A stretch of 64,000 nucleotides of DNA, from positions 744,001 through 808,000 of the forward strand of contig NZ_CP047941.1 in NCBI RefSeq assembly GCF_014279815.1, read 5' to 3'. Below, piece by piece: positions 17,284 through 60,179 of this stretch (position 1 is the stretch's first letter; every line of letters starts with the position of its first letter). Under the pieces are notes generated by a model, which saw only the letters and a program-made list of their open reading frames with translations, had not been told where the DNA came from and did not search any database. The translations under genes and the position numbers were made by a program. This DNA comes from Synechococcus sp. NOUM97013 (GTDB lineage Bacteria > Cyanobacteriota > Cyanobacteriia > PCC-6307 > Cyanobiaceae).

Positions 17284-17505
17284 TTGTTAGAAGAGCAACT
17301 TAAAGCCTTCCTGGAAAAGGTGAAAGGGGTTGCCAGCCTTCAGATGCTCGGAGCCACTGCTAATTCTGATGCGGTCGTCGCCATTGTGAAAAAGGCTTGG
17401 TCTAGTTTTTCTGCTGATGATTTGTAGCTTGATTAAGCTGAGGTTTCTGATGACGAGCTGGAAGTGGAGGTTATCGTTGGCCGGCGTCCTGTGTGTCTAT
17501 TCTAA
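17284..17505 (+). pseudogene. Decayed Nif11/prochlorosin-type precursor peptide gene
   Basis: From a TTG at 17284 the frame reads L-L-E-E-Q-L-K-A-F-L-E-K-V-K, then N-S-D-A-V-V-A-I-V-K-K-A and S-F-S-A-D-D-L. This is clearly the same leader type as the intact precursor at 6217-6450. It then meets TAG (17425) and TAA (17434), and resumes in the same frame as A-E-V-S-D-D-E-L-E, the normal end of such leaders, before a relic core ending R-R-P-V-C-L-F. The normal Met start and the Gly-Gly site are lost. It is therefore a dead copy in the variable region. Confidence 0.75.
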
Positions 17506-26420: not shown

Positions 26421-26668
26421 CAGTAGGGGTCGGTGGCTAACTCCACCCTCAGCTGGCCTGATGCTGGCGCAGGCACGGTGCTGATGCAGGACCTCACCAC
26501 GGTCCCGTTCACTTCGATTTCGCAGGCACCGCAGCTGCCACCCAGGCAGCCGGTGGGGATGTGCATGCCCGCCTGTTGCGCCGCCTGCAGCCAGTCTTCC
26601 CCTTTGCAGCAGACGCTGCGACGGCCGTTCGGCCAGTGAATCTCCACCTGTGGGGGCTTGGCGCTCAA
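26417..26668 (-). CDS. [2Fe-2S] plant-type ferredoxin
   Basis: An 83-residue protein from a TTG at 26668 that overlaps the cobQ stop by four bases (TTGA). The cluster ligands are Cys41, Cys46 and Cys49 (C-L-G-G-S-C-G-A-C) and Cys61, the C-x4-C-x2-C...C spacing of plant-type ferredoxins. An earlier Cys-Cys pair (20-21) is unusual. It is short compared with the ~97-aa photosynthetic ferredoxin, so it is probably a specialised electron carrier. It is coupled to cobQ upstream and the ClC gene downstream. Confidence 0.88.
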
Positions 26669-28191
26669 GGAGGGGATGACAGCAATGGGTCCAGATTCAC
26701 ATGCTGCTCGAACGCATCGGCGAGACGATCGAGCAATGCCTCGCGCTGACGGCTGTGATGGGGTTGATCCTCGTTGAGTTCGGCTAGGTCCCGCCGACGT
26801 CGCAAGCGGTTCAGCCAACGACGACGCCAGGGGCCGTTGTCGAATATTCCGTGTAAGTACGTTCCTGCGGCGGCTCCAGCCTGGTTGTTGTGGTGCTTGA
26901 TCCACCCGAGTCCGTCGTCGGCACAAAGCGGTGTGCAGTCACCACTGACCTCCGTCAGTCCCCGGTGAAGTTCGAATCCCTCCAGCTGCAGCGGGGGCAT
27001 CTGCGCTGGCCACAGAGCAGTGCTGTGGCGTTGTCGGAGTGCTTTGCCTCCGCCGAACACGGTCCGGATGGGCAGCAGCGCCAGCCCTGGAACATGCCCG
27101 CTCGGCGTGTCGGTGTGGGGCTCTCCCTCGAGACCATCCGGATCTTGCAGGGATTCACCCATCATCTGCATGCCGCCGCAGATGCCGAACACCTCTCCCC
27201 CCTGCATGGCGAAGTCGACCAGCTGAGCATCGAGGCCAGTTCGGCGCAAACTGGTCAGATCCCGCAGGGTCTGCTTGCTGCCTGGAATCACCACCGCATC
27301 GGGGGTGCCGAGCGATTCCCCAGGGGAGACCCAACGCAGTTGAACCGTGGGCTCCGCCTCCAATGGGTCCAAGTCGGAAAAGTTGCTCAGTGATGGCAGC
27401 TTGAGCACGGCGATGTCCAGCTCTGCGGAGCGTTTGCGTCCGCGACGTTCCAGCAGATCCAGCGAATCTTCGGGGGGGAACAGCTCATCGAGCCATGGCA
27501 TCACGCCCACCACCGGCACGCCAGTGTTGGCCTCCAACCAGCGGCGGCCTTCGTCAAACAGCTCCCGGCGGCCGCGAAAACGATTGATCAGCAGCCCACG
27601 GATCAGAGGACGTTCTACGGGCCTCAGCAGCTGCAGCGTTCCCACGATCTGGGCGAACACCCCTCCCCGTTCGATGTCAGCCACCAGCAGGCAATGGGCC
27701 CTGAGGTACTGCGCCAGGCGGAGGTTGGTGAGGTCGCGTGCCTGCAGGTTCACCTCCACTGGGCTACCAGCTCCCTCCAGCACCAGCCGCCCGCCTGGAT
27801 GCGCTTCCTGCAGCGTCCTCAGTCCCTGGCGAATGGCGACCCAGCCTGGACGAAACCAATCGCGGTAGTAATGCTCAGCACGGCACTGACCGACCGAGGC
27901 CCCAAGGTGAATCACCTCACTGGTTGAGTCGCCCTGCGGTTTGAGCAACACGGGATTCATCGCATGATCGGGCTCCAGCTCAGCGGCCCAGGCCTGGAGT
28001 GCTTGGGAGTACGCCATTTCACCCCCGCTTTGATCCACCCAGGCGTTGTTGCTCATGTTCTGGCCCTTGAAGGGCAGCGGACATTCGCCGCGTCGTCTGA
28101 GCACGCGACAGAGGGCAGCTGTCATCAACGATTTGCCGGCACCGCTGCTGGTGCCAAGCACCATCAGGGGGGCTGGCTGGGGGCTGCGCAT
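26665..28191 (-). CDS. cobQ: Cobyric acid synthase
   Basis: This enzyme amidates four carboxylates of the corrin ring during cobalamin synthesis, using glutamine and ATP. From M-R-S-P-Q-P-A-P (ATG at 28191) about 508 residues; M-G-D-L-R-C at 28242 is an alternative. The N-terminal P-loop-like [10 protein letters not shown] and [10 protein letters not shown] begin the synthetase domain. The C-terminal class I glutaminase has the nucleophile Cys in [10 protein letters not shown] and the late His in F-E-L-H-R-G. It is first of a four-gene overlapping chain and divergent from the lanthipeptide cassette. Confidence 0.93.
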
Positions 28192-28343
28192 TCGAATGGG
28201 GTGGCTGCGATCCGCTGCTGTTGAGCATCGCAAGTCACCCATCGACGTTTCGCGTCGTTGTGAACAGCACGTGATGTCGGACTCGACAGTTGAACAACCT
28301 GTGGTTCGATACGGCCAGTTCTCGAGCGATGTCGCGCTGACCA

Positions 28344-29891
28344 ATGCCGGTGAAGCGTGCGGCTCTTTTTCCTCTGGGGCTCGCCTTGTTCACAGGCTTT
28401 GGCATGCCTCTTGTAGCCGAGCCGTATCCGTTGGCTCAACGCAATCCTCTGGCGAAGGAGCAAAAGGCGGATGCATTGGTCGACAGGCTTCAGCAACTGC
28501 GAGCTCGCGTTGATGCTTCATCCCAGAAAGTCTCCCTCGAGGAGGCGATTGAGCTGGGGCTTCGCAATAACCCTGATCTGGTTGCAGCATTTCGCGCGAT
28601 CCAGCAGTACGAATGGCAACTGATTGCGGCCCAACGTCAGTGGTACCCCACGCTTGAGCTTTCCAACGGCGCGCCATTTGTCGGTTTAAGTGCGAACACC
28701 TACATCCAGAACTTCTACAACTCACAACGGGAGCTGGTGACGTTGTCTCCCGGCAGCGCTCTGGATGCACCAAGACAGGTCAAGCAGTTCACCACCACGG
28801 CCGTTTTGCAGCCGGGTGCAACAGCGTCCTGGAGCTTCATCGATCCCACGCGGCAGCCCAACATCAACGCCGCATCAGAGGCACTGCGTCAACAGAAGCT
28901 GCTGTTTGATGTCAGCGCTAGAAACCTGATCCTGCAGATCCAGACCTCTTATTACTCCCTGCAGAGTCTTCGTCAGCTCATTGCTGATTTTCAGCAGATC
29001 TATGACATCAACCGTCGCCAGATGGAGGTGATCAGAGCCCGGTATGGGATTCAGCTGGCGACCGTTCTGGATCTGGCCCAGACGGAGTCTCAGCTGTTTA
29101 ATCAGCTCAATCAGCTGGTCTCATTCACGCAGTCGTACATCACAGAAGCTGCTCAACTGGCCCGCCAGCTCGGGTTGCCAGCCAACAGAATGGCGATGCC
29201 GGTGGAGAAGGCCAAGCTCTACAACAGCTGGACGGTTCCCCTCCCGGAAACCATTGCCCGTGCCACGCAACTGCGTGAAGAGATCCTCGCCAGCCTTGCC
29301 GCTGCGCAGTCGGCGCAGTGGAGTGGGATTGCGCAAATGAATCAATATCTCCCCGTCTTTCAGGTGGTGGGCAGGGGAAGCCTTCGGCTGGAAAGTGGTG
29401 TGATCAATGGGGTCCCTGGTCGGGACACCACGTTTGCCCAGTCGGGTTTGAAAACATGGGATGGTGCTGTTGGTATCGGTTTTAATTGGGCGTTGTTTGA
29501 TGGCGGTATTGATGCAGCCCAGGCCCAGTCTGAATACGCTCAGGCCGAGCAAAAACGATCAATGGCTGAGTCAAATCGTCTGCAGACCGTTGAACAAGTC
29601 CGTTCTAGTTATGGCGACTACGAGGCGTCTCAGGTGGCGGTTGACAGTGCACGGATGGCTTACCAGGCCGCACTGACGGCACAAGAGGTTGCGCGTGCCC
29701 GATTTGATATTGGGGTTGGTGACATCACCACCATTGTGCAAACGATCGAACAGTGGGGAACGTCATCGCAGCAACTGTCGCAGGCAATCCTGGCTTACAA
29801 CAAAGCCGTTGCAGAGTTATATCGCTATTCGGCGACCTGGCCTGGAGCCAGCGGTGCATTGGTGCGTGAACAGGAGAAGCGGATGCGATGA
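28344..29891 (+). CDS. TolC-family outer membrane channel of the lanthipeptide export cassette
   Basis: A 515-residue protein with a signal peptide ([11 protein letters not shown], cut near V-A-E). The TolC repeat entry [17 protein letters not shown] is near 64-80, and long amphipathic helices ([26 protein letters not shown]) follow. It provides the outer-membrane exit duct. Its stop overlaps the HlyD start by four bases (ATGA at 29888-29891). First gene of the five-gene cassette; the ~100-150 bases upstream, shared with cobQ, must contain its promoter. Confidence 0.88.
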
Positions 29892-31285
29892 GACAGATTT
29901 TCGAGACACGCGCCCTGCGCAAACGCCATCAGTCGGGAGACAAACAAACTCCTATCGTTGTGTTGTCGCCGCCGCTGCGTCTCACCCTTGGTTTTGGGGT
30001 GGTGTTGGCATCCGTTGGTGTGCTCTGGTCGGTGCTGGCGCGAATTCCGATCGAGGTCAGCGGCACCGGTGTGCTTTTGCCTGTTGGGGTGATTAATAAC
30101 GTTCGCGCTGCTGTGGATGGCCGAGCGCGCTGGACGTTTGCAGATTCTCGTTATCACTGGGCTGATGAAGCCTTGCGGTTTCAACGTGAGCCTGAATCAC
30201 TGTCGAATGCCGAGGTGATGGAGCTGTCGCGAAGCATTCTTCGTTCCTATGCACCCTCACAAGTCCAGCCACGATTGAGCTCCGATGCTGTGACGCCTGG
30301 ACAGACGTCGTATGCACAAGGAACTCTGCTCATCTGGTTGCAATCGCTTCAAGAGCAAGAGGCCTTGCAGTCACAGCTCGACAGGCTGACATCTGTTGGT
30401 GTGCTCACGCGCTTTCAGCAGAAAACGCTGGCTGAAAAGCAAACGATTCTGGAAAAAGAACTGAAAAGCCGCCAGGCATTTTTTAATTCGATGCATGCCC
30501 TCGCTCAGAAGGGCTACGTCAGCAAGCCCACCCTTCTTCAAAATCAGGCGCAGGTCGATAATCTCGAATCTCAGATCTTTTCCAATCAAGACTCGCTTGC
30601 GAAGCTTCAAGCGCAACTGGAGCAGTCGTACATCAAGCTGCGCCAGTCATTGGCTCAGATGATCTCCAATGGTTTGATTTTTGCGGATCACGATGTCTAC
30701 ATCCGTCAGGTGGTTCCCAATGACGGTGAAGGTGTCTCCAAAGGTGATTCACTTCTCCTGCTGAGTCGGGAATCGCTGGCCAACCCAGCTCGGGTGCCGG
30801 TGTTTCTCTCAGCCCGTGAATCAGCCCAGGTCAACGTGGGGATGCCTGTGTTGGTGACACCGGTGGGGATGCGTCGCTCCGAGGTGGGTGGCATTCAAGG
30901 GCGTGTGGTTCAGCTGGCTGAATTACCAAGCGGTGAGCAGGAGCTGGAGGCGCGCCTGGGTGTGAGTGAACTGGCGTCTGTGATCCGCAAGCGTGAACCC
31001 AGTCCCACACTGGCCGTGGTGGAGCTGGAACGCGACGCCGCCGATCAAGGCGACAACCGGGCTGGTTACGTCTGGAATTCCAGAGGGGATCTTCCCTTTG
31101 CTCCCAAAACGGCCGATCAGCTCACCGTGGCGATCACGACGCGTCATGTCGCTCCCATTGCATTGGTGATTCCACGCTTGCGCCGCTGGTTCGGCATCGT
31201 TCCGCCGGAATCGCGAGATGGGACTGAGGAAATCTCGGGTCAGCCCTCATCGTCGAACCGGTCGACGACCCCAAGGGGCCGTTGA
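29888..31285 (+). CDS. HlyD-family adaptor (NHLM bacteriocin-type secretion)
   Basis: A 465-residue periplasmic adaptor with one membrane helix near 32-50 (L-G-F-G-V-V-L-A-S-V-G-V-L-W). The N-terminal pattern [12 protein letters not shown], then I-E-V-S-G-T-G-V-L-L-P-V-G, is that of NHLM-system HlyD proteins. The middle is coiled coil (about 160-260: L-E-K-E-L-K-S-R-Q, A-K-L-Q-A-Q-L-E-Q-S-Y). It links the inner-membrane ABC exporter to TolC. It is coupled at both ends: ATGA with the tolC-type gene and a one-base TGATG with the ABC gene. Confidence 0.88.
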   Translation: MRQIFETRALRKRHQSGDKQTPIVVLSPPLRLTLGFGVVLASVGVLWSVLARIPIEVSGTGVLLPVGVINNVRAAVDGRARWTFADSRYHWADEALRFQREPESLSNAEVMELSRSILRSYAPSQVQPRLSSDAVTPGQTSYAQGTLLIWLQSLQEQEALQSQLDRLTSVGVLTRFQQKTLAEKQTILEKELKSRQAFFNSMHALAQKGYVSKPTLLQNQAQVDNLESQIFSNQDSLAKLQAQLEQSYIKLRQSLAQMISNGLIFADHDVYIRQVVPNDGEGVSKGDSLLLLSRESLANPARVPVFLSARESAQVNVGMPVLVTPVGMRRSEVGGIQGRVVQLAELPSGEQELEARLGVSELASVIRKREPSPTLAVVELERDAADQGDNRAGYVWNSRGDLPFAPKTADQLTVAITTRHVAPIALVIPRLRRWFGIVPPESRDGTEEISGQPSSSNRSTTPRGR

Positions 31286-33495
31286 TGTCCAGCACACCAT
31301 CACCACGGGTCAAGGCCACAACGGTTCTGCAATACGAAGCAGCCGAATGCGGTGCCGCCTCGTTGGCAACCATCCTTCGCTATCACGGGCGCATCGTCCC
31401 CTTAACGGAGCTTCGTCGTGCCTGTGGCATCAATCGCGACGGCTCCAATGCTCAGCATGTCTTGGTGGCCGCCCGTCAATACGGTTTGAAGACCAAGGCC
31501 TATCGCTGTTCCGGGGAGCAGCTGATGCTCCAAGGTCAGTTCCCCTGCGTGATCTTCTGGGGCTTCAATCATTTTCTCGTTGTCGAGGGTTTCGACCAGA
31601 CGCATGCGTTCCTGAGCGATCCAGCGCAAGGACGTGTGCGCGTTCTGCTGGAGGAATTTCTCGATCACTTCACCGGTGTGGTTCTGGAGTTCTCACCCGG
31701 CCCGGAGTTCCGTCGAGGCGGTCAGGATCGATCCCCGTTGTGGATGCTGCCGGGCTTGCTGCGTCCTTATCGCAATCAGCTGCTGCGTTTGATGGTGGTG
31801 GCTTCGGCCCTGCTGGTGCCCAATCTGCTGGTGGCGGGGCTCACCGCATCCTTCATCACGGATTTCCTCCAGGAAGAACGGCTCTATTTCGGGATTCCCA
31901 TCGTGTGGTTGTTGGCCCTCAGTTGCTTGATGTGGCTGATCCTGATGGCGGTGCAGTTTGTGGTGCTGAGGCGCCTGGAGCTGCTGCTTTCCAAAAAGCT
32001 CACCGCTGATCTGTTTGAAAAGCTGTTCTCTGTGCCGTGGGCTTTTTTCCAGGTGCGCATGGCCGGCGAATTGTCGTCGCGGATGCTGCTCGGCATGCAA
32101 ACCACCCAAGTGGTGGTGGCGCAGTTGCTGCGGTTCTTGGTGAGCACCTGGGCTGCGCTGCTGTTGTTGGTGGTGAGCTGTTTGATCTCGTTCTGGCTGA
32201 CTGCGTTGGTGGCGGTTGTGCTCGCCCTCAATCTGTTGCTCAACTGGTGGCTCACGGCTCAGCGTTACGACGCCAACCGCAAGCTTGCGATTGAACAGGG
32301 CAAAGCTCAGGGTCGAGCGCTGCAAGGCATCAACACGATCGAAACTCTGAAGGCGTCAGGGCTGGAGTTCGATTTCCTCAGCCAATGGCAGGGCAATTTC
32401 GGCTCGGTCGTGGAGCAAAACCAGTTGCTTGGTGCTCAGCTCGCCTGGTCGAGCATCAGTGCCAGCACCGCCACGCTGTTGCTGTCGGCCCTGGTGATCA
32501 CCCTTGGGGGAGTGCTGATCATCCAGGGACGCATGTCCCTTGGCCTGTTGGTGTCGTTTCAGTTCCTGCAGGTGCAGTTGATCGCTCCGATCTCCACCTT
32601 GCCGCAGTTGAGCTCCACCCTTCAGCGTCTGATCGGTGATCTGGGCCGCCTGGTGGATCTCACGTCCACGGCGAATGACCCCCATGTGCGCAGCTTTCAA
32701 TCCGCGCGCACAGGCTTTGAAGCGACGCTTGGTGACGATCAACGCCTCAACGGTCGGATCACGCTCAAGGGGGTGAGCTATGGGTTCAATGCCATCGATC
32801 CGCCTTTTCTTCCAGCGCTGGATCTCGAGGTTCCCGCTGGGTCACGCTTGGCCCTCGTGGGAGGAAGTGGATCTGGCAAGACCACCTTGATCCGCATGCT
32901 CGCTGGGCTGTTGGACCCGTTGGACGGTGAAATTCTGTTTGATGGCAAGACGTGGAAACAGCTGGATGATCAGCTCGTGCGCGGGAGCATCGCCTACGTG
33001 CCTCAGCAGGTGTTCGTGTTCAACGCCTCCGTTCGCGACAACATCACGCTGTGGAACCCGGACTACACCGATCAAGATCTGCAGGCCGCCGCTGCTGATG
33101 CCCAGTTCCTGGAGCCCGTGACTGGTCATCCGGATGGCTTTCAGCGGCAGTTGCGCGATAACGGCAGTGATCTCAGTGGTGGCGAACGGCAACGTCTGGA
33201 AATTTGCCGGGCCTTGATTCGCCGGCCTTCGATTCTGTTGCTCGACGAAGCCACCAGCTCCCTCGACAACCTCAGTCAGCGCGGTGTTCTTGATGCCGTT
33301 CAGCGGCGGGGCATCACGGTGGTGAGCGTTGCCCACAGGCTTGATGCTGCTCTGGCCAGTGACCAGGTGCTTGTTCTCTCCAAGGGGCAGGTGATCGAGC
33401 GTGGTCACCCGGAGCGGCTTCTGGAGGATCCCCTGAGTGAATTTTCAAAACTCGTGGCCGCCGAACTTCGCGAGTCAATCGAGGTGATGCCATGA
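31285..33495 (+). CDS. C39-peptidase ABC exporter (NHLM ABC1 type)
   Basis: About 736 residues. The N-terminal C39 peptidase has its catalytic Cys in Y-E-A-A-E-C-G-A-A-S-L (about residue 22), the His in W-G-F-N-H-F-L-V-V-E and the Asp in L-S-D-P-A-Q-G. This domain cuts leaders after Gly-Gly, as found at the end of the precursor at 6217-6450. Six membrane helices follow. The ATPase has G-G-S-G-S-G-K-T-T near 525, L-S-G-G-E-R-Q-R, and L-L-L-D-E-A-T. A TTG three bases earlier is an alternative start. The stop overlaps the next ABC gene by ATGA. Confidence 0.92.
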   Translation: MSSTPSPRVKATTVLQYEAAECGAASLATILRYHGRIVPLTELRRACGINRDGSNAQHVLVAARQYGLKTKAYRCSGEQLMLQGQFPCVIFWGFNHFLVVEGFDQTHAFLSDPAQGRVRVLLEEFLDHFTGVVLEFSPGPEFRRGGQDRSPLWMLPGLLRPYRNQLLRLMVVASALLVPNLLVAGLTASFITDFLQEERLYFGIPIVWLLALSCLMWLILMAVQFVVLRRLELLLSKKLTADLFEKLFSVPWAFFQVRMAGELSSRMLLGMQTTQVVVAQLLRFLVSTWAALLLLVVSCLISFWLTALVAVVLALNLLLNWWLTAQRYDANRKLAIEQGKAQGRALQGINTIETLKASGLEFDFLSQWQGNFGSVVEQNQLLGAQLAWSSISASTATLLLSALVITLGGVLIIQGRMSLGLLVSFQFLQVQLIAPISTLPQLSSTLQRLIGDLGRLVDLTSTANDPHVRSFQSARTGFEATLGDDQRLNGRITLKGVSYGFNAIDPPFLPALDLEVPAGSRLALVGGSGSGKTTLIRMLAGLLDPLDGEILFDGKTWKQLDDQLVRGSIAYVPQQVFVFNASVRDNITLWNPDYTDQDLQAAAADAQFLEPVTGHPDGFQRQLRDNGSDLSGGERQRLEICRALIRRPSILLLDEATSSLDNLSQRGVLDAVQRRGITVVSVAHRLDAALASDQVLVLSKGQVIERGHPERLLEDPLSEFSKLVAAELRESIEVMP

Positions 33496-35636
33496 GCGAG
33501 GCCCGGCGGCGCGCGCTCCAACAGGCGGATGCTCTCGAGCGCGATCTCCTGTTGCAGTCCAGTGAGGATCTGTTGCCGCAGCACGAGTTGCGACTGATTG
33601 GGTTCTGTCTGCGTCATCTGCAGGCTCCTTGGCGGCCTCTGATTGCCATCCCTGATGCCGAGATCAGTGTTCAGCTCGATCACAACGACATTCACCATCG
33701 CCGTGTGGATCCACCGCGCGAGCCATGGAGCAGTGAATTCCCGATGTTGATCGTTCACGATCGGAACTCCGGAGAAGCGCTGGCACTGTTCCGTGATCAA
33801 GGGCGTAACTGGTTTTATTCCGCTAATCGCGATCAACGCTGGCCCGTGCCGAAATCAGCGGACCTCGCTGGTGATGCCTTCGAAATTTATCCGTCGTTGC
33901 CTGCCAAGGTCACAGGACCTCTGCGCGTGATCTCGTTCGCTTTCGATACGGAATGGAGGGCTATCTGGGCCTTGATGCTGGCATCGGCAGCCGTGATGGC
34001 TTTTCACTTCAGCATCCCAATTTTCACCAACCTTCTGGTGAATCGTGTTTTGCCTGAAAACGATAGCGCTCTGTTATTGCAGGGGTTGGCGATTGTGCTT
34101 GTGGTGGTCGCTGGTGTGGCCGCGGCGCAGTATCTGCAAACCGTGATGATGTTGCGGATTGAGAGCATTACGGATCTCAGGTTGCAAACCGCTGTGTTTG
34201 ATCGCGTGATGCGCTTGCCGATGCGATTTGTCTCGCAATACACCACTGGTGACCTGGCATCGCGTGTTAACTCCATCAGTCAATTGCGTCAGCTGCTGGG
34301 CAGTGGTGTTCTTTCCACGTTGCTTTCGGCTGTGTTCAGCGTCGGTTACTTCGTATTGATGGTGATCTACGACAGCACCCTGGCGATCTGGGCCGCGATC
34401 TTCACCCTGGTTTCACTGGTGGGCTTGTTGGTACTCACCATTCGTGATATCCAACTGCAGAAACCGCTGTTGGAGACTGGTGCAGAAATTACTAATTTCT
34501 CGCTCCAGTCTGTGTTCGGACTGGCTCAGATCCGTAGTGCTGCGGCTGAGCCATTCGTGCTGCTCCGATGGCTGAGGGAAGTAAATCACTATGCGTTACT
34601 GCAACTGCGCAGCAACATCTATAGCGACGGGATTGAAATGTTCGGCACGTTGGTCAGTCCCCTGGCCTCATTGATGATGTTTACGGTGGTGACCCATCGG
34701 TTGTTAGCCAATGCCAGCAGTTCGGCTGAATTTGAAGCCATTCTGGTGAGCTTTATCTCGTTTAACGCTGCTTTTTCGGGGTTCAATGCATCACTCTCCC
34801 AGGCCGCCAACCTCTTGGCCAACACCTTCGGCCGTGCCAGCGTTCTTTGGAAACGGGCAGAACCCATTCTTTATGCCGAAGTCGAACGCGGTTATGAACC
34901 CGATGCTGTGCATCATCAGGTGGGGGGGCACTATCGCTTCCGTGATGTCACCTACACCTTCCCTGGAGCATCTGAGCCAATTCTGCGCAACCTGAATTTC
35001 GAGATCATGCCGGGTGAACACACGGTGATCACCGGCCCTAGTGGTTGTGGCAAGTCAACGTTGGTGCGCATGTTCCTGGGCTTTGCTGATCCCCAAGCCG
35101 GTGAAGTGTTGGTGGATGGCATTCCATTGCCTCGATTGTCGATACGGCACTACAGACGCCAACTCGGCGTTGTGCTGCAGACAGCGCATCTGAATGGCGG
35201 TTCGATTTATGACGTCGTCTGCGGCGGGCTTGTGCTCGATGAGGAGCGCATCTGGGAGGCCTTACGCGCAGCCTCCGTGGCCGATGAAGTGGAAGCCATG
35301 CCTATGAAACTCGAGACCCTTCTGATGGATGGTGCTGGCAATGTGTCGGGAGGGCAGGCGCAGCGCATTGCCATTGCCAGAGCCCTGATTCATCAGCCCC
35401 AGGTGCTGATCATGGACGAAGCCACCAGTGCTCTCGACCCTGCATCGCAGCAGCGCATCAATGCCACCGTTCAATCACTGGGGATCACCAGAATCAGCAT
35501 TGCGCATCGTCTGGCCACGATCAAAGATGCCGATCGAATCCTGGTGCTCAGAGATGGTGCAATCTCTGAAAATGGCACCTGGGATGAATTATGTGAGCAC
35601 GGCTACCTTGCGCAAATGTTGTCAAAAGGGCGCTGA
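33492..35636 (+). CDS. Second ABC exporter (NHLM ABC2 type)
   Basis: A 714-residue half-transporter. The first ~150 residues form a soluble domain without a C39 Cys, as in the partner subunit of NHLM exporters. Membrane helices run from about 160 to 440. The ATPase has G-P-S-G-C-G-K-S-T near 515, V-S-G-G-Q-A-Q-R and V-L-I-M-D-E-A-T. It probably forms a heterodimer with the C39-bearing exporter. LanM starts only 5 bases after its stop. Confidence 0.9.
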   Translation: MSEARRRALQQADALERDLLLQSSEDLLPQHELRLIGFCLRHLQAPWRPLIAIPDAEISVQLDHNDIHHRRVDPPREPWSSEFPMLIVHDRNSGEALALFRDQGRNWFYSANRDQRWPVPKSADLAGDAFEIYPSLPAKVTGPLRVISFAFDTEWRAIWALMLASAAVMAFHFSIPIFTNLLVNRVLPENDSALLLQGLAIVLVVVAGVAAAQYLQTVMMLRIESITDLRLQTAVFDRVMRLPMRFVSQYTTGDLASRVNSISQLRQLLGSGVLSTLLSAVFSVGYFVLMVIYDSTLAIWAAIFTLVSLVGLLVLTIRDIQLQKPLLETGAEITNFSLQSVFGLAQIRSAAAEPFVLLRWLREVNHYALLQLRSNIYSDGIEMFGTLVSPLASLMMFTVVTHRLLANASSSAEFEAILVSFISFNAAFSGFNASLSQAANLLANTFGRASVLWKRAEPILYAEVERGYEPDAVHHQVGGHYRFRDVTYTFPGASEPILRNLNFEIMPGEHTVITGPSGCGKSTLVRMFLGFADPQAGEVLVDGIPLPRLSIRHYRRQLGVVLQTAHLNGGSIYDVVCGGLVLDEERIWEALRAASVADEVEAMPMKLETLLMDGAGNVSGGQAQRIAIARALIHQPQVLIMDEATSALDPASQQRINATVQSLGITRISIAHRLATIKDADRILVLRDGAISENGTWDELCEHGYLAQMLSKGR

Positions 35637-35641
35637 CGCCG

Positions 35642-38600
35642 ATGTCCGTAATGCAGTCATGGCCTTCTTTGCATCAACTTCTGCAAGCTGAGAAGGGGCA
35701 AACCACTGATTCAGCTGTCAGCTGCGACGACCTCAACGGTTTCCAGCAGGGGCTTGGTCAAGCCTGGCTCGACGCGATCGCACCCCAGGAAAGCGACAAA
35801 CTGGCGCGTCGCTTTGCCTGGTCAGGCCTGGATGCGGAAACCCTGCGTCGCGTCTTGGCCCGTGCCTCAAATCCTGAAGAGGCAGCCATTTCTGAACCCT
35901 GGTGGGATGAACTGAAGGCATTGCAGCATGCGCTGCGATCCGACCCTGATCGTGCCCTGCACCCCTACGTCGCTGAGGATTCGGATAAGCAGAAGCTGCC
36001 GTTTGCAGACCTCTGGCTGCCGGTTGTCGACGATGCGGTGGCCAGGCTGCGCGACAGCCTTTCCGATTCGCAGACGCGATCTTTCACTGACGACGTCTTC
36101 CAGGCTCTGGGGCAATCGTTACTGAGCCGACTCAGCAGCGTCTCTGAGCAGGTGCTGTTTGAGCAGTTCAACCTGTTGCGACCTCCCGGCGTGATGCTGC
36201 TGGCCCACCTCGGTGCCGCAGGCGACGGTCAGGGCCCTCCGGTGCGCGAATACTACGAGCGCTTCATTCGTCAGCATCGTGCTGATGGACTGGACGGTCT
36301 GCTCAAAACCTTCCCGGTGTTGGGCAGGTATCTGGGTCTGGTGTGTCTGTTTTGGCGCCAGTCCAACAAAGAGATGCTGCGCAGGATTGATGCGGATGTT
36401 GACGCCTTGCAGCAGACCTTTGGAATTCCCCCATCTGCTGCGCTCATCGACATCAAGCAGGGCCTGAGTGACCCCCATAACGGAGGGCAGGCGGTCAGTG
36501 TTCTGACCTTTGCCACCCCGAATGGCGACAGCACATCACGCTTGGTCTACAAACCCAAGGACATGGGGGTTGATCTTGCCTATCACCAAGCCCTTGATCA
36601 TCTCAATCGCAACAGTGCGTTGCCGCCCCTGCGCACTCTGAGCATTCATTGCGGTGACGACTATGGCTACATGGAGTTTGTTGAGCATCGTCTCTGTAGT
36701 GGAGACGATGAGCTCAAGCGCTTCTACCGCAATGCGGGTCGTCTCACGGCCGTTTTGCATCTCTTCGGTTGTACCGATTGTCACCACGAGAACCTGATCG
36801 CTTGTGGGGATCAGCTGTTGTTGATTGATACGGAGACTCTCCTTGAGGCTGATTTACCGGATCACATCAGTGATGCGTCGGAGCATCAAACTTCTCTGAA
36901 TCAGTCAGATCTTCAGAAACGGTTTCAGAACTCCGTGCTTCGCTCCGGTCTACTGCCCACGTGGTTGTTTGTCGGTCAGGCTCGAGCTGCTGTGGACATC
37001 AGTGCGCTTGGCATCGCCCCGCCAGCCTCCACCACCATGAAGAGCGCCGGTTGGTTGGGTCTCAACAGCGACGGCATGATGGCCGGTCGCATCATGATCC
37101 CTGCGGAGGTGCCCACGAGTCTTCCGGTGGGCTGTGGCGAGACCAACGGGCTCAACAGGCATCTCGAGATCTTCTGTGAAGGCTTCCGTGAACAGTGCCT
37201 CGCCTTTGAGCAGACCCGTGATCACTGGATCGGAGCCGATGGTGTGCTCGAACGCTTCCGTGGTCTTCCGCGGCGCATCGTGCTGAGGGCAACCCGCGTT
37301 TATTTCGCGTTGCAGCGTCAACAACTGGAGCCAGCGGCCTTGCGGTCCCCGTTGAGCCAGGGATTGGTGCTGGAGCAGCTCAGTCGCAGTTTTCTGATGG
37401 CAACCGATCGGCCCAAGCATTGGCCCGTGTTTGATGAGGAAGTGCGCCAGATGGAAAGGCTTGATATTCCTTTCTTCGTTCACGCCATCGACGGCAACGA
37501 CCTGCCCCTCAGTGATGGATTCGCTCCTGTTGAGAACTTCATCGAAACGAGTGGTCTTGAATCCAGCCGCCGACGGATTGAGACCTGGGATGCCGCAGCG
37601 GTGCAGTTTCAGGAGCAGCTGATTCGCGGCACCAGTCGTGCGCGTGTCACCACTGAACAGGGTTGGCAGAACCAGGAATCGGCTCCCGAGGAGCTTGACG
37701 TTGCCGACTTGACGCCTGATCAGTTGCGATTGGAAGCAGGTCGTCTTGTCGATGTTCTGGAGGAGATTGCCATCCGAGATTCCGACGGTTTGGTCGATTG
37801 GTTGGGGATGGATCTCGGCAGTGATGGCGAAAAATTCGCCTTCGGCCCTGTTGGCCATTCCCTCTATGGCGGAACGGCCGGTGTGGCTCTTCTGGCGGCC
37901 CATTTCCCGGAACACGCTGACCGGTCTGAACTGTTGAAGGCCGTGATTCCTCCCCTTCTGCAGCTTGGAGAACCCAGTCGTGATGGCATGCGTTTGCGCT
38001 GGTGGAGAGATCAGCCCCTGGGGTTGAACGGTTGTGGAGGCACGCTGCTGTCTCTGCAGCAACTGGCAGCCCGCAGCGAAACCGACCGACGCCAGTCACT
38101 GCAAGAGCTTGAGTCGTTGTTGATTTCAGCCCTGCTGCCGGACCATATCCGTGCTGATCTTGCCCTTGATGTGATCGGAGGTGTTGCTGGTTTGATCGGC
38201 CCGCTTCTGCAGAACGGTTCGGCGCGAGCCTTGGAGTGTGCGGTGCTCTGTGGCGATCAGCTGCTCCAGCATCAAACGGAGAACGGGGGATGGTCGCTGG
38301 GTGGCCCTGACCGTCATCCCCTGCTTGGGTTTTCCCATGGCACCGCCGGATTTGCCGCTGCGCTGGTCAAGCTTGGACAGTGTGTGGGTGAAGCCCGTTT
38401 CATCGACGCAGCGTCGCGTGCCTTGGTCTATGAACGTGAGCGCTTTGATGCCGACCATGGCAATTGGCCCGACTATCGCGACTACAAACCTAACCAGCCC
38501 AACCAGTTCATGACGTCCTGGTGCCACGGCGCGCCAGGCATCGCCCTGGGACGGACCTGTCTGTTTGGCACTCCTCTCTGGGATGCGAGCTGTCTGGACG

Positions 38601-39013
38601 AGATGACCACGGCTCTCCAGACCTTGACCGCGTTCCCCTTACCCATGGCGGATCATCTCTGTTGCGGAACGATGGGCAATGCCTCGTTGCTGCGGATTGT
38701 GGCCGAGGGCCCTTGGTCTGATCAGTTGCCGGCGACATTGCGCTCCGCGGCCATCGAGCGCTCGTCGCAGCTGGTGAATCAGTCCATTGCCAGGGCAAGA
38801 GGTCTTGGGGGATCGTTCCGATGCTTTGGTACCGCTGATAGCAACCTGTTGCTTCCGGGGTGCTTCACCGGTCTTTCCGGAATCGGCCTGGCCTTGATGG
38901 ATCAGGTCAACCGCGATGACTGTTTGCAGACTGTGTTGTCGATGGGACTGCTCTCACCATCGGGGGCGGTGACGACGGCACCAGTGCACGAGTCGATGCG
39001 TCAATCCAGCTGA
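35642..39013 (+). CDS. lanM: Class II lanthionine synthetase (LanM) with CCG zinc motif, ProcM-like
   Basis: A 1123-residue bifunctional enzyme that dehydrates Ser/Thr and adds Cys to make thioether rings. The dehydratase half shows L-V-Y-K-P-K-D near 300, and C-H-H-E-N-L-I with L-I-D-T-E-T-L-L near 380-400. The cyclase half begins about 730 (Y-G-G-T-A-G-V-A). Its zinc site is Cys961 (S-W-C-H-G-A-P-G) plus Cys1007 and Cys1008 (L-C-C-G-T-M-G-N). The third ligand is thus Cys, not the usual His, the CCG form known from ProcM and other broad-specificity synthetases. No precursor is adjacent. Its last 60 bases overlap the convergent gene at 38954. Confidence 0.93.
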   Translation: MSVMQSWPSLHQLLQAEKGQTTDSAVSCDDLNGFQQGLGQAWLDAIAPQESDKLARRFAWSGLDAETLRRVLARASNPEEAAISEPWWDELKALQHALRSDPDRALHPYVAEDSDKQKLPFADLWLPVVDDAVARLRDSLSDSQTRSFTDDVFQALGQSLLSRLSSVSEQVLFEQFNLLRPPGVMLLAHLGAAGDGQGPPVREYYERFIRQHRADGLDGLLKTFPVLGRYLGLVCLFWRQSNKEMLRRIDADVDALQQTFGIPPSAALIDIKQGLSDPHNGGQAVSVLTFATPNGDSTSRLVYKPKDMGVDLAYHQALDHLNRNSALPPLRTLSIHCGDDYGYMEFVEHRLCSGDDELKRFYRNAGRLTAVLHLFGCTDCHHENLIACGDQLLLIDTETLLEADLPDHISDASEHQTSLNQSDLQKRFQNSVLRSGLLPTWLFVGQARAAVDISALGIAPPASTTMKSAGWLGLNSDGMMAGRIMIPAEVPTSLPVGCGETNGLNRHLEIFCEGFREQCLAFEQTRDHWIGADGVLERFRGLPRRIVLRATRVYFALQRQQLEPAALRSPLSQGLVLEQLSRSFLMATDRPKHWPVFDEEVRQMERLDIPFFVHAIDGNDLPLSDGFAPVENFIETSGLESSRRRIETWDAAAVQFQEQLIRGTSRARVTTEQGWQNQESAPEELDVADLTPDQLRLEAGRLVDVLEEIAIRDSDGLVDWLGMDLGSDGEKFAFGPVGHSLYGGTAGVALLAAHFPEHADRSELLKAVIPPLLQLGEPSRDGMRLRWWRDQPLGLNGCGGTLLSLQQLAARSETDRRQSLQELESLLISALLPDHIRADLALDVIGGVAGLIGPLLQNGSARALECAVLCGDQLLQHQTENGGWSLGGPDRHPLLGFSHGTAGFAAALVKLGQCVGEARFIDAASRALVYERERFDADHGNWPDYRDYKPNQPNQFMTSWCHGAPGIALGRTCLFGTPLWDASCLDEMTTALQTLTAFPLPMADHLCCGTMGNASLLRIVAEGPWSDQLPATLRSAAIERSSQLVNQSIARARGLGGSFRCFGTADSNLLLPGCFTGLSGIGLALMDQVNRDDCLQTVLSMGLLSPSGAVTTAPVHESMRQSS

Positions 39014-39367
39014 GGGGATGGCTTCCGGCCAGTCGGTCAGTACCTCCCGGCCGAGCGGCGTGATACGCACCCGTTCTGTCAGGCCCTGGCCATCCACTTC
39101 CCGGCGCAGGACTCCCAGTTGAATCAGCCAGATCAGGTGATCCTCGGTCTGGCTGGCATTGAGGCGTTTCTGGGTCAGGGCTGGCCAGTCGTCGAGAGCC
39201 ACCAGTTCGCCACTGCTCATGGCACCCGTCTCCAGGTGACGGTAGAAACTGCGCTGAAACGGCAAGCAGCGCACGGCTTGACGCGCTCGTCGCAGAGCAT
39301 GCCGCGTTAATTCACTGGGGTCCTGAAGGATCACGCGACCGGTTCTGTTGGGAGCTGTTGATGCCAT
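38954..39367 (-). CDS. Conserved cyanobacterial winged-helix-like protein
   Basis: A 137-residue protein. [19 protein letters not shown] and [33 protein letters not shown] form a helix-then-wing pattern like MarR-type winged helices. It resembles the cyanobacterial family I recall as Npun_F0494, of unknown function. Its C-terminal codons overlap the end of lanM on the opposite strand, so lanM's neighbour on this side is core genome. Confidence 0.65.
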
Positions 39368-39399
39368 TCTCGTGGTCAGCTTCCCGAACTGAGGGCTTC

Positions 39400-39975
39400 A
39401 TGCTGCTGCTGGCTTCCGCGTCCCCGGCACGACGTCGTCTGCTCGAGCAAGCGGCCATTCCCCATCGGGTGCAGATCAGCGGTGTGGATGAGTCCACCAT
39501 CCAGGATTCAGACCCATCCACGTTGGTTCAGCTGTTGGCCAAGGCCAAAGCAGAAGCGGTGGCGTCGCAGCTGGAAGAAACAGGCATCTCCGCTGTCTTG
39601 GGATGCGATTCGGTGCTGGTGTTCAACGGAGTGGTGTTCGGCAAGCCGGTGGATGCCCAACAGGCGGCCGAGCGCTGGCGCAGCATGCGTGGCGGTTGGG
39701 GAGAGCTGCACACCGGGCACTGCCTGCTTGTACCGGCCTCGAAGGACTCTTTCAGTCCGCGACGGGCCTGCGTAACCACCCGCGTGTTGTTTTCCGACCT
39801 CAGCGATCCGGAGATTGAGACCTATGTGAACAGTGGGGAGCCGCTGCAATGTGCCGGAGGCTTCGCTCTGGAAGGCCGTGGCGGCAGTTGTGTGGAGCGT
39901 CTTGATGGCTGCTATTCCAACGTGATCGGTTTGAGTCTTCCGCTGTTGCGGCGATGGTTGTCGTCCTTGCCTTAA
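39400..39975 (+). CDS. maf: Maf-family nucleotide pyrophosphatase
   Basis: From [15 protein letters not shown], 191 residues. The opening is the Maf signature. [20 protein letters not shown] and the late G-A-F-A-L-E-G-like segment ([10 protein letters not shown]) and [10 protein letters not shown] follow in order. Maf proteins hydrolyse non-canonical nucleoside triphosphates. A start at 39358 would add 14 poorly supported residues. It is divergent from the winged-helix gene. Confidence 0.9.
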
Positions 39976-41837: not shown

Positions 41838-44800
41838 TTGAAATCACGCCACGGCTTGCTGCTCTTTTGGCTATTACAAGTCTCGGTTTCTCTTTATTCT
41901 GGTGCCGCGCACTCAGGCGCATTCGATGCTGGAGGTGGTTCTGCAACAAGCAGTGGTGCTGTTGCAATCGGGGAATCAGCTAGTGCGACTGGTGATTTTT
42001 CAACTGCTGTTGGAGCTTCATCGAATGCAAGTAATACAAGCGCTACAGCGATCGGCAATGCCTCATGTGCATTGTCACAAGGTGCTACATCTTTGGGTTT
42101 TGCTGCGATCAGCAACGGCTCTGATGCGCTTGCAATAGGATCATCTTCTTTAAGTTCAAAAGCCAATTCGTTGGCTATTGGAACAAATTCCAGCTCTGTA
42201 GGTGATTTTTCTACAACAATTGGTGCAAACTCTTCTGCATCTAAGGCAAATTCAATTGCATTAGGAACGAATACAAAATCTGCGGGCGTCAATTCTGTTG
42301 CTATTGGAACATCTTCGTCTGCTTCTAATACCAGTTCTATAGCTGTAGGAGCTTCATCTTTAAGCAAAGCTGTTAATTCTACTGCGATCGGCGTAGGTTC
42401 AAATGCATCAGGCCTTAACTCTCTGGCCTTGGGCCCATCTGCTGTGGCCAGTGCTGAAAATTCAGTGGCCATTGGTGCTGGTTCCGTAGCCAACAAAACC
42501 AATCAATTCGCGATAGGTTCTAACGCGAGTAACTATTCAATGCCGGGTCTGACTTCAGGCAAGATGCCTGATCAACTCCCTGCTAAGCCTAATTCTTCTG
42601 CAAAAACAAGCGACTCCACATCAACTTACCAAGTAGCTGTATCAGCGGTAGCGAGTGGACACGTTTATAGTTATACAAATACTTCGACGAAGGCAACTCA
42701 ATATATCAAATGCAATACAGGCATTACTTCCACTGGATGTACATCCTCCGATGGAGACACTACGGTTGATTCCGGTAATGCCAGCGATTTTAAAAAGACA
42801 GATGTTAAGTGGTATGCAAATCAATCCACAGTCACCCCTCTGGTCGCAGGTTTTAAGGATCTTGGCTGGTCCGTCTACGCTCAGAGTGGAACAGCTAACT
42901 ATTCACCCTCGACGCCTTCAGTCGATAGCAACGGCAATCTTTATGCTTCGCAATCTTCGCTAATACCTGATAATACATACTACTTAACTGCTAACGGGTA
43001 TACGACTGCAGTATCCCAGTCAAGTTATAACCAAAATACTTGTTTTCAGCAGTATTCGAATGCGCAAGGAACTTTTAATTCTACGTCGTGTATTCCACAC
43101 CCAAAGGCAACGAGCACCGGTTCATCGGCTTCATCCTTTGATCAGGCCTTGGGTTCCACAGTTTTAGGATTAGGTTCACTCCTCAATGGGCTTTCGAAGT
43201 CCGTCGCGCCTTCTACTTCTGTTTCAGCCATTGCGCGCCCTAGTGGGGGTGGTGTCTGTGTTCCACCAGCACAAATAACCGCTGCAACAAACGAAAGGTT
43301 GCTCACGGTTGCAGGTGATGGCATTCTCAATGTTGCAGGCGAAGTTGGGTTGCTGCAGGTCACAAGTCTTGAGGCAGATGAGTTTACTGGCGATGTGACA
43401 TTGATCGCAATTGACGGAAGCGTTGATTGCGGTGGTATCTGTGGAGGTGGAGGAACGGTCGATGGTGCCACAAATATTGTTGGTGGTGGCTATATCGAGA
43501 TGACGGACGTCAATATCGATGATGCAAACATTGTGATTGATACGGAAGGTGAGGCTAATTTTACTTTTAGTGCAGAAGGTGTCGATCTTGTCTCATGTGC
43601 CTCAGAAGGCTCAGAAGGTTGGGCCGATTTGGGTGGCCTTGCGACGACGTCTGGGACGCTTGCCATTGGTCCTGGTGCCAACACTGTGGGAGAGGAAACC
43701 ATTGCGATTGGAGTCGGAGAAGGAGGAGCGGTAGCAAGCGGAGAAAACTCCATTGCGATTGGAGTCGGTGACGGAGGAGCGAAAATATCTGGAACTGAAT
43801 CCATTGCAATTGGGGTTGGAGAAATAGGTGTGAGCGTCGAAGCAGGAGAAGGTGTTATTGCGATTGGTTCAAATGTTAAAAATACAGCAGGCGGCGATAA
43901 TGTACTAATTGGCGGATCTTTGACAAATGGTTTTGGTGGTAATAATATTATTATCGGTGATACTTCAAAAATTTTGGAGGCCGATGGCGCGATATCTCTA
44001 GGTGATCTTGAAAAATTAGTTGAAGGTTCAATTGTGCTTGGCAATCAATCTCAGGTGTCAGGTGCGAGTTCAATTGCGATAGGTAATACCGCGATAGTTG
44101 GTGCTGCCGCTGGAGCGATTGCTATAGGTAATGCGGTCGGAACTGGAGCTAGTGCTGGAGCAATTGCTATGGGTAATATTGCTGTAACTGATGATGGAAA
44201 AAACCAAATCGCGATAGGTAATAAAGTCACCGCCTCCAAAGATTCAACAATCAGTATTGGTGACAATGCAAAAGCCACGGCAAAGGGTGCAGTCAGTATT
44301 GGGGCAGGAACGGTTGCTTCAGGCAAAGATTCTCTTGCGCTTGTTGCTGCTACCGCTTCTGGTGATGAGTCAATTGCTATTGGAGCTGAGGCTTCGGCTA
44401 CAAAAGAGAAAGCAATTGCCATTGGAGGTGGGGCTAATGCCACAGCTGAGAAGTCGATTGCAATGGGGGCAGAGGCAAATGCGTCGGAAGTTAATGCCAT
44501 AGCATTTGGCACTGAATCAAAAGCATCTGGAGTTGGTTCTATTGCGATTGGTGCGGATGCGAAGGCTGCTAATACATCTGCCGTCGCCTTAGGCACTGAA
44601 GCCAATGCATCTGGAGTTGACTCTATTGCAATCGGTGCCCGCTCAAATTCTGCGAATTATGGCTCTATCGCTCTTGGTGCGAATGCATCATCAACTGGCA
44701 CCAATGCGATTGCGATTGGTACGAATACATCGGCTACGTTTAACAACTCCTTTTTGATTGGTGCTGGAGCCATTGCCAATGGCACTGGAGCAGGAGCGAT

Positions 44801-47800
44801 TGGTTACAAGGCGAACACGCAGGGCCAAGACGCGATGGCCGTTGGCGTTCAAGCTTGCGCGTTAGGCAACAATTCCTTGGCCCTTGGCACGCAGGCTGTT
44901 TCCTCGGGCGTGGATTCGATTGCGATTGGTTTTAAAGCAAACTCTTCGAAAAGGAACGCAACATCCATTGGAACCAATGCGACGGCCAATGGGATTAATT
45001 CCATGGCCTTTGGTGCCCATGCCTATGCAAACGGCAACAATTCCACGGCAATTGGTGCCCAATCATTTGCGAATCGAACCAATTCTTTTGTGATTGGCCC
45101 CAACACCACAGCTTGTGGTGTGAATGCTGGTGCGATTGGTGCTAGTGCGAATGCCAATGGCACCTCATCGTTGGCGATCGGTGTTCAATCCTTTGCCCAG
45201 CAGGCAAGCTCATTAGCACTTGGAACCAATGCGTCCTCGATTGGGACGAACTCCACTGCTATCGCTGTGAATGCCTCAGCAAAGGGGGCGAATTCGATGG
45301 CGATCGGTTATTTCTCCAAATCGGTTGGTGTGAATTCTGCGGCCTTATCGGTTCAAGCCAACGCATCAGGAAATAATTCTGTTGCCTTGGGTGTGTTTGC
45401 TAATGCTCAGGGCGGTAATGCCTTGGCTTTTGGTACGGAATCAAAAGCTAATGGTACGAATGCCACCGCAATCAGTTCTAACTCTTCTGCTGCTGGGAAT
45501 AATTCCATCGCAATCGGTGTGGATTCTCTAGCTACAAAGACGAATGCTCAGGCCTTTGGTGTTTCAGCCAAAGCCATAAAGATTAACGCCACTGCTATCT
45601 CTGCCAATGCAACAGCATCTGGTTCGAATTCGATTGCTATTGGTATTGATTCGCTATCGAGTGGGGAGGATTCCGTTGCGATTGCTGCCAAGGCAAAATC
45701 AACAGCTGAAAACTCTTTAGCGTTCGGCGTTGCTGCACAGGCAAGGGCCGTCAACACGGTGGCAATCGGCACGAAGGCGATTTCAAATCAGACGGGTGCG
45801 TTGTCATTTGGCGCGAACGCCACAGCCACAGCGAATTACACGATGGCCTTTGGTGTTGGTGCCAATGCGAATGCCAATAATGCAACGGCGATTGGACATG
45901 CTGCAGCAGCATCATCACCAAACAGCATTGCAGTTGGCTTGGATGCTCAGGCGAGTGGAACGAAGTCGATGGCATTGGGTTTGAAATCACGATCGCTTGA
46001 TACGGATACGATTGCGATTGGTGCTTATTCAAATGCGAGTAATGCCAATGCCACGGCCTTTGGAACCAATGCCAGTGCTTTAGCCAACAATTCGATGGCG
46101 TTGGGGACGAAATCATTGGCGAATACCACGGATGCTTTTGCGGCGGGTCTTAAGGCGAAAGCGACGGGCGTCAACAGCATGGCCTTGGGGATGAATTCAT
46201 CGGCCACCAGTACCAATGCTTTGGCCTATGGCTCCTGTGCCACTGCCACAGGAAATAATTCGATGGCAACCGGTACGCAGGCGTTTGCTAATGCCTCCAA
46301 AGCGATTGCCTCTGGCGTGAAAGCGAAGGCTACAAATACTGGCGCTATTGCCTTTGGTGCCTATGCGAATGCCACGAATGTGAATACGATCGCAATGGGT
46401 GGATCTGCGCAAGCGGTTGGAGCTAACAGTACAGCGATTGGTGTGTCTAGTTATGCCGATGCCGATCAAGCACTTGCCGTTGGAGCTTCGAGTAAGGCAC
46501 TTCAAAATGGGGCGATGGCTCTTGCTGCTTATTCGTATGCCGATGGAACCGATGCGATCGCTGCCGGTTATAAAGCAAATGCCTCTGCTAGTAACGCCAT
46601 CGCACTAGGCACGAATACAACAGCTAGCGCGAAGGATTCTTTTGCTGCTGGTTATCAGTCACAAGCCACAGGTGTGAATTCAATGGCTTTGGGCAGTTCG
46701 GCGAAAGCAACGAAGGACGGAGCCTATGCCGCAGGTTTGCGTGCCAGCGCAACAGGAAATAACTCGGTGGCCCTTGCCACTAGTGCATCGGCAACTGCTA
46801 CGAATGCCTATGCGTTAGGTGTCGGTTCCCTCGCCACTGCAGCTAATGCCACGGCCTTTGGAACAAAAGCGAATGCCAGTGGTGATGCATCCTATGCCGT
46901 TGGTTTGTCTGCCAAAGCAACCGAGACCAATGCCACGGCCTTTGGAACAACGGCTACTGCCAGCGGAAAAAATAGTTTTGCGATTGGTTCTAATGCAACA
47001 GCAACTGGTCGTGACGCAGTGGCGCTGGGTGTTTCTGCCAATTCCACCCAGAATGAATCCTTTGCTGCTGGTACGCAATCGCAAGCTATTGCCAATCAGG
47101 CTTTAGCTTTCGGTGCGAATGCCAACGCATCTGGAAATTATTCTCTTTCTGTTGGTTCCAATTCTCAAGCCAGCGGTGAGAACGCTCAAGCGCTTGGTGA
47201 TAGGGCCAACGCATCTGGAAATAATTCCTTTTCGGCTGGTGCCAGGTCAAAAGCATCAAATTTAGACTCGGTGGCAATTGGCACAGGTTCCTCCTCTACG
47301 AATACATCGACGTTGGCACTAGGAACCAATGCGAGTGCGAGTGGTTTTCAATCCACGGCGATTGGCTTTAAGGCTAATGCCTTTGCTTATGATTCTGTCG
47401 CTGTTGGTGCACAATCACTTGCTGTAGCAAATAATTCGCTTGCTTTTGGAACCTCATCGAAAGCCTCTGCTCAAGGTGCCATGGCTTTTGGGCTTGAGTC
47501 ACAGTCTTCAGCTCTTGATTCGATTGCTATTGGCTACAAGTCTCAAGCGATTCGAGAAAACAGCACGGCGATTGGTTCTAGTTCCAAAGCGTCAGGTGTG
47601 CGCTCGATTGCCTTTGGTCAGAAAGCGACAGGAAGTGGGTCCGATTCAATTGCCATTGGTACTTCATCGATTGCCATTGATCGAGACTCTCTTGCGATTG
47701 GTACAAGTAGTTCTTCTACTGGAAATGAAGCATTTGCTTTTGGCACTCGCGCTGTCGCCAGTGGTGAGCGCTCTACAGCTATTGCGACAGATGCATCTGC

Positions 47801-59934: not shown

Positions 59935-60179
59935 GAGTGCTTTCCAAAGCAGAGCAGCAGGGCTTCACCCCAGCTGGCGGCATCGTTGATGTGATCGTCG
60001 TGCAGCTGCTGCAAGCGTTCAGCCTGCATCCTCATCATCGTTGCCTGGGTGAACTCGTGACCCTGTTCTTTCGCGAGATCAACCACGTGCTTGGGTGTGG
60101 CGGCTTGACGCACCTGTTCGCGGACCTTGGAATCGGACTGAACCAGGGCAGCAAAGGCGGCGAGAGCTGACTCGGACAC
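59931..60179 (-). CDS. Nif11-like small protein without a Gly-Gly core
   Basis: An 82-residue protein, M-S-E-S-A-L-A-A-F-A-A-L-V-Q-S-D, V-V-D-L-A-K-E-Q-G-H-E-F-T. This is the Nif11 domain, related to the leader of the lanthipeptide precursor at 6217-6450. It lacks the Gly-Gly cleavage site; the last stretch (A-S-W-G-E-A-L-L-L-C-F-G-K-H-S) has one Cys and Ser but no core-like tail. It is more likely a stand-alone Nif11 protein than a precursor. Its stop overlaps the presumed CTG start of the pseudouridine synthase. Confidence 0.7.
   Translation of the reverse strand: MSESALAAFAALVQSDSKVREQVRQAATPKHVVDLAKEQGHEFTQATMMRMQAERLQQLHDDHINDAASWGEALLLCFGKHS

Follow-up and report, generated by a model that had tools for sequence, protein, structure and literature searches.

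Among the described lanthipeptide systems, the prochlorosins and synechococsins are the closest to the locus discussed here. According to the available text of Arias-Orozco 2023 (PMC10783134), their LanM synthetases carry a CCG motif as the mark of the family, have TolC, HlyD, ABC and C39 genes nearby and are accompanied by scattered procA or syncA genes, the precursors having the leader motif D/E-E-L-E-x3-G-G; the biological function of prochlorosins is given there as unknown. For Prochlorococcus MIT9313 (ProcM, ProcA) the accessible parts of PMC10783134 and PMC2887384 describe one CCG LanM and scattered precursors with Nif11 leaders ending in Gly-Gly, and for Synechococcus MITS9509 (SyncM, SyncA) those of PMC10783134 and PMC9872173 describe a LanM of the ProcM kind and as many as 79 dispersed precursors. 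Haft 2010 (PMC2887384, available in part) reported that such precursors are located far from the genes for their modification and export, and named Synechococcus RS9916 as a genome that holds Nif11 precursors and a LanM, which are not necessarily clustered; the NHLP/N11P exporter described there comprises HlyD, a C39-ABC and a C39-less ABC, with the precursors lying away. A survey of cyanobacterial LanM clusters (PMC3140520, likewise available in part) sorted them into groups, of which bacteriocin group IV combines LanM with HlyD and C39-ABC transporters. The window analyzed here, which is the whole stretch of 64,000 nucleotides from 744001 to 808000 of the single-contig genome of Synechococcus sp. 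NOUM97013 (2,552,712 bases), a marine picocyanobacterium to judge from its relatives and genome size, contains a related cassette of five genes at 28344-39013 (772-783 kb of the genome). We read it as the one enzyme-exporter operon of a trans-acting pathway of the prochlorosin/synechococsin type with scattered precursors, and assign this reading a probability of about 90%, since 11 precursors were found outside the cassette and the number of leaders follows the presence of a ProcM-like LanM within the genus.

On the forward strand, the five open reading frames (ORFs) for TolC, HlyD, C39-ABC, a second ABC protein and LanM follow each other head to tail, so that both the coordinates and the gene calls of the first-pass annotation were right. 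The tight junctions reported there are likewise confirmed, with overlaps of 4 bases at 29888, 31282 and 33492 and a gap of 5 bases ahead of LanM; a 1-base overlap results if the C39-ABC gene starts with the ATG at 31285 instead of the TTG at 31282. The five genes form one operon. LanM (35642-39013, 1123 amino acids) matches PF13575 (E-value 6.6e-103) and PF05147 (2.3e-33) and thus shows the class II architecture of a DUF4135 dehydratase and a LanC-like cyclase domain. Its score of 749 bits against lanti_2_LanM (TIGR03897, 6.1e-225) lies far above the cut-off of 304. The dehydratase domain contains TDCHHEN, and the cyclase domain contains SWCHG and HLCCG, a three-Cys zinc site. The third ligand Cys of this CCG motif characterizes ProcM-like enzymes and was present in 26 of the 27 LanM rows compared, the exception (L066) being a partial row.

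The first gene of the operon (28344-29891) encodes a TolC-family outer-membrane channel (PF02321, OEP/TolC, 3.6e-43). It is followed by a HlyD-type periplasmic adaptor (29888-31285) with NHLM_micro_HlyD (TIGR03794, 7.1e-26) as its best match and no match to a Pfam family at 0.001. The C39 peptidase-ABC exporter ABC1 (31282-33495) matches NHLM_micro_ABC1 (TIGR03796, 5.6e-212), and its residues 13-141 match Peptidase_C39 (PF03412, 2.3e-31), a domain that would be expected to cleave after Gly-Gly. The Q and C in VLQYEAAEC, the H in FNHF and the D in LSDP are its candidate catalytic residues. The second ABC exporter subunit ABC2 (33492-35636) is without a C39 match and fits best to NHLM_micro_ABC2 (TIGR03797, 6.1e-159). 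HlyD, a C39-ABC and a C39-less ABC are therefore adjacent, as in NHLM exporters.

A genome search for Nif11 leaders ending in Gly-Gly, which the first-pass annotation had asked for, revealed 11 unbroken precursors, each with a Nif11 leader and an end of the double-glycine type. They lie outside the cassette in 8 places, spread over 750-2428 kb of the genome and hence not confined to the neighborhood of LanM. The leader end is Gly-Gly in ten of them and Ser-Gly-Ala-Gly in L014. With a Nif11 leader, an end resembling D/E-E-L-E-x3-G-G and a variable core containing Ser/Thr and Cys, they have the features of prochlorosin and synechococsin precursors. Nearest to the cassette, at a distance of 22 kb, is a candidate substrate of 77 amino acids at 6217-6450 on the reverse strand (TIGR03798, 2.9e-24), whose leader end ELENLAGG precedes the core NWSSCICQDTA. 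Left out of the count were Nif11 matches without a double-glycine end, as for example at window positions 59976-60176, and scraps such as L023, L028 and L030/L032. The pattern E-L/F-E-x3-G-G matched 13 times in the genome, comprising ten Nif11 leaders (two of them broken), one NHLP precursor beside a second LanM (LanM2) and two unassigned matches, compared to 0 matches for the reversed pattern as control. In a set of 11 cores, which includes L018 with its broken leader and excludes L008 (broken) and L010 (93-residue tail), Cys accounts for 21 of 230 residues, compared to 0.8% in six window proteins, and each core holds at least one Cys and at least one Ser/Thr.

By analogy with the family, LanM would bind the conserved Nif11 leader of precursors encoded at scattered positions of the chromosome, dehydrate Ser/Thr in the variable cores and link these residues to Cys. 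Cleavage after Gly-Gly by the C39 domain of ABC1 would follow, and ABC1/ABC2, HlyD and TolC would move the cyclic peptide across both membranes. While the operon, its family matches and motifs and the scattered precursors are seen directly, the action of LanM on the 11 candidate substrates is predicted from these features.

An alternative explanation would be that the precursor pool is a relic, in which most of the Nif11-Gly-Gly genes are in decay and few peptides, if any, are still exported by the cassette. Three leaders are indeed broken by stops (L008, L018, L022), the scraps mentioned above point in the same direction, and L010 carries its odd tail of 93 residues. However, 11 unbroken precursors are left, all ten of them that were counted have Cys-rich cores, and the reading frames of LanM and the four exporter genes run uninterrupted over their full length, which makes a relic pool unlikely. 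A decayed Nif11 precursor lies in the window itself at 17290-17463 on the forward strand (TIGR03798, 1.4e-8); it has two in-frame stops (one TAG, one TAA) and no in-frame Gly-Gly.

The second line of evidence originates from the relatives. A search over 300 genomes of the family gave a LanM match in 24, among them 11 of 24 listed genomes of the same genus. With a model built from the 11 leaders, 37 genomes were then searched, namely 21 of the 24 with a LanM match (without G107, G144 and G159), 13 of the same genus without LanM and 3 others of the family without LanM. At E <= 1e-10, the 11 same-genus genomes with LanM showed 3, 9, 15, 17, 18, 22, 26, 34, 40, 100 and 150 leaders, the counts for G271 and G289 being lower bounds (150 candidates scored each). 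For the 13 same-genus genomes without LanM the number was 0 twice, 1 seven times, 2 three times and 4 once. The difference is significant in a one-sided Mann-Whitney test (p 2e-5), in which the genomes are related and not independent. Seven independent pairs differing in LanM were therefore taken from a single-gene Maf tree, with 5 or more leaders regarded as many; six agreed, none disagreed and one was equal (p 0.031). Within the genus, ABC1 was matched at E <= 1e-150 in every one of the 11 LanM-bearing genomes and in 2 of the 13 others, so that LanM, ABC1 and many precursors are directly observed to occur together. The three other family genomes without LanM had 1, 0 and 0 leaders. In G216, a LanM remnant of 81 amino acids (L157, G216:C1:1730172-1730414), 79% identical to the window LanM, coincides with 0 leaders at the same threshold.

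Several observations weigh against a trans-acting pathway of this kind. ABC1 was matched in G156 (66% identical) and G204 (40%) although these two genomes lack LanM, and 1-4 leader matches occur in 11 of the 13 LanM-free genomes of the genus. G231 has a LanM but only 3 leaders. Outside the genus the link is looser: G072 combines a diverged LanM with 0 leaders, G268 has only 2, and G029 has a LanM but no ABC1 match. Compared to the exporter of Haft 2010 (PMC2887384, as far as available), the window genes show best matches to TIGR03794, TIGR03796 and TIGR03797, but all three stay below the curated equivalog cut-offs (HlyD 91 bits with a cut-off of 156, ABC1 706 with 853, ABC2 531 with 709), and TolC lies within the operon. 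The three transporter genes thus resemble the NHLM exporter in appearance and probably also in function, although they would not be classed as equivalogs. Finally, besides the cassette the genome encodes LanM2 and another HlyD-ABC1-ABC2-TolC set, so that either exporter could take a given precursor.

LanM2 (genome 2313605-2316802) shows matches to the two LanM domains and likewise contains HLCCG, so that it could be the enzyme that mainly serves the Nif11 precursors, with the window cassette serving something else. Its locus (L068:12412-17888, genome 2312411-2317887), which was read for genes together with L069, L085 and L086, nevertheless holds a precursor of its own: 203 amino acids with an NHLP leader, in which AAGG is preceded by two stretches resembling NHLP and the core is rich in Gly/Ala and contains two Cys. 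A Cupin_8 ORF overlaps the 3' end of LanM2. LanM2 is only about 24% identical to the window LanM over 438 residues. A search of 28 other genomes, in which all candidates were scored, did not find it; the matches there were 23-27% identical and lay within ProcM-like LanMs (14 of the 28 have such a LanM). In ten genomes of the genus that lack LanM2, leaders number 3-150. Because of its own precursor alongside and its absence from the 28 genomes, LanM2 is very improbable as the enzyme of the Nif11 pool.

The absence of a precursor from the cassette, as claimed in the first-pass annotation, held in every search: the Nif11 models (PF07862, TIGR03798), the NHLP model (TIGR03793) and a degenerate DNA pattern for E-L/F-E-x3-G-G did not match anywhere in 28344-39013; a looser regular expression over window positions 20000-48000 gave nothing in the cassette and two fragments beside it (23191 on the reverse and 44450 on the forward strand), neither with a Nif11 leader. 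The cassette thus lacks the precursor gene that a classical cis cluster contains. A cis system with an overlooked precursor can practically be dismissed: although short genes are easy to miss and one of another family overlapping the cassette genes could escape these searches, all of them came out empty and no gap among the five genes exceeds 5 bases. The conclusion drawn earlier, a trans-acting system feeding on scattered precursors, is supported by the genome search and the co-occurrence within the genus; the missing neighbor, from which it had been derived, is not a defining property, because Nif11-type leaders often adjoin LanM in relatives, e.g. in G186, G193, G246 and, at the same site, in G289. 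Whether a precursor lies next to LanM is a matter of strain.

In the LanM tree, the window enzyme forms a clade of six with those of G141, G186, G265, G271 and G289, apart from the Prochlorococcus-type rows, with a Shimodaira-Hasegawa-like approximate likelihood ratio test (SH-aLRT) support of 100. The tree was built by a quick method with SH-aLRT support and no bootstrap, and the places of LanM2, G072, the second LanM of G289 and the Opitutae row are uncertain because of long branches. The window LanM shares 66-87% identity within the clade and about 50% (50-52%) with the Prochlorococcus-type rows. Its identity to the LanM of Prochlorococcus AG-412-I05 is 50%, and to those of three genomes of one genus 50-53%, one of which is identical to the AG-412-I05 enzyme. 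SyncM lay outside the LanM set compared.

The gene order around LanM was compared as well. G000, G141, G265, G271 and G289 share the identical five-gene order after a CLC-channel/cobQ pair and before a gene for 137 amino acids and maf; G289 has roughly an additional 3 kb, with a Nif11-like leader, between LanM and the latter pair. TolC is 89% identical in G141 and 57-59% in G265, G271 and G289. In 22 other genomes inspected around maf, the distance between the matched portions of cobQ and of the 137-residue gene is no more than 71 bases in 15, about 700 bases in three and about 950 in one, while in three cobQ lies outside the stretch. Since five genomes share the filled site and others show a nearly closed junction, the cassette has the appearance of a block that was either inserted into or lost from a single site between cobQ and maf. 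Seven other genomes show a different arrangement, in which LanM and ABC2-ABC1 stand tail to tail, with HlyD and TolC behind the ABC genes in the two loci that are long enough (L061, L064). LanM is far from the ABC1 match in G186 and G071 (in G071, LanM at 280 kb and ABC1 at 1056 kb). In the other large clade LanM thus lies tail to tail with ABC2-ABC1 or, as in G071, far from ABC1, whereas the window LanM is the last gene of an exporter operon; ProcM itself was not among the sequences compared by name. The survey in PMC3140520 (available portion) differs in another way, reporting nine lanM genes away from other biosynthetic genes, whereas the window lanM lies with its exporter and only the precursors are away.

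In G071, a stretch of 39 residues (G071:C1:1053496-1053612) near the ABC1 match at 1055803-1057992 weakly resembles the LanM C-terminus (36%, E 6e-4), and the full LanM at 280-283 kb may have moved away from its exporter. The second exporter set of the window genome (L085:10019-17571, genome 1525018-1532570) is without LanM, and the genome scan gave no Nif11 match within 10 kb of it. Its ABC1 is 36% identical to that of the window. An origin as remnant of a tail-to-tail module was considered but is not supported, as this ABC1 is only 34-37% identical to LanM-linked picocyanobacterial ABC1s of either arrangement.

A contig scan added relatives in Synechococcus UW105, Prochlorococcus AG-412-I05, two Roseovarius, an Opitutae metagenome-assembled genome (MAG) and two freshwater-type Synechococcus/Synechococcaceae MAGs. 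In the two Roseovarius and the Opitutae MAG (L062, L063, L065), LanMs 43-45% identical to that of the window have Nif11-like leaders alongside, which suggests a transfer between phyla.

Upstream, the cassette is flanked by cobQ (cobyric acid synthase, 26665-28344, reverse strand; NF001989, 4.9e-170), the start of which is probably nearer 28185, where most homologue matches begin. Downstream, the conserved 137-residue gene (38954-39367, reverse strand; 89% in G141, no Pfam match at 0.001) overlaps the 3' end of lanM and is followed by a Maf-like protein (39358-39975, forward strand; PF02545, 5.7e-54). At the cobQ junction of G193, G260 and G181 (L172, L165, L174, about 355-997, maf forward), an ORF of 133 amino acids with HPFxDGNKR, which we take to be Fic/Doc-like, and one of 75-76 amino acids, presumably AbrB-like, were observed, possibly a toxin-antitoxin pair. 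An ORF of 2837 amino acids at 41838-50351, 2.8 kb downstream of the cassette, resembles a YadA-type trimeric autotransporter adhesin with 20 YadA head stretches and a YadA anchor.

Since unlinked Nif11 precursors, CCG LanMs and nearby exporter genes are all described in the available parts of PMC2887384 and PMC10783134, this kind of system is not new; the locus is a genuine and well supported member of it, ordinary in its mechanism. Added here are the separate LanM clade and the operon-end LanM at the cobQ-maf site in five genomes, neither of which a limited literature search allows to be called unprinted. Both are points of some interest. Tentatively, and with slightly less than even confidence, the LanM clade and its exporter could be regarded as a self-contained module with a fixed site between cobQ and maf, which diverged in evolution from the ProcM-type module in tail-to-tail order and comes or goes as one unit, with an independent, fast-changing precursor pool expanding or collapsing after it. 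For work on substrate-tolerant lanthipeptide synthesis, the window offers a LanM that is about half identical to the Prochlorococcus-type enzymes and comes with its own natural candidate substrates. Furthermore, the pattern within the genus, with many leaders in genomes with LanM and few in those without, makes the dependence of the precursors on one enzyme testable by deletion.

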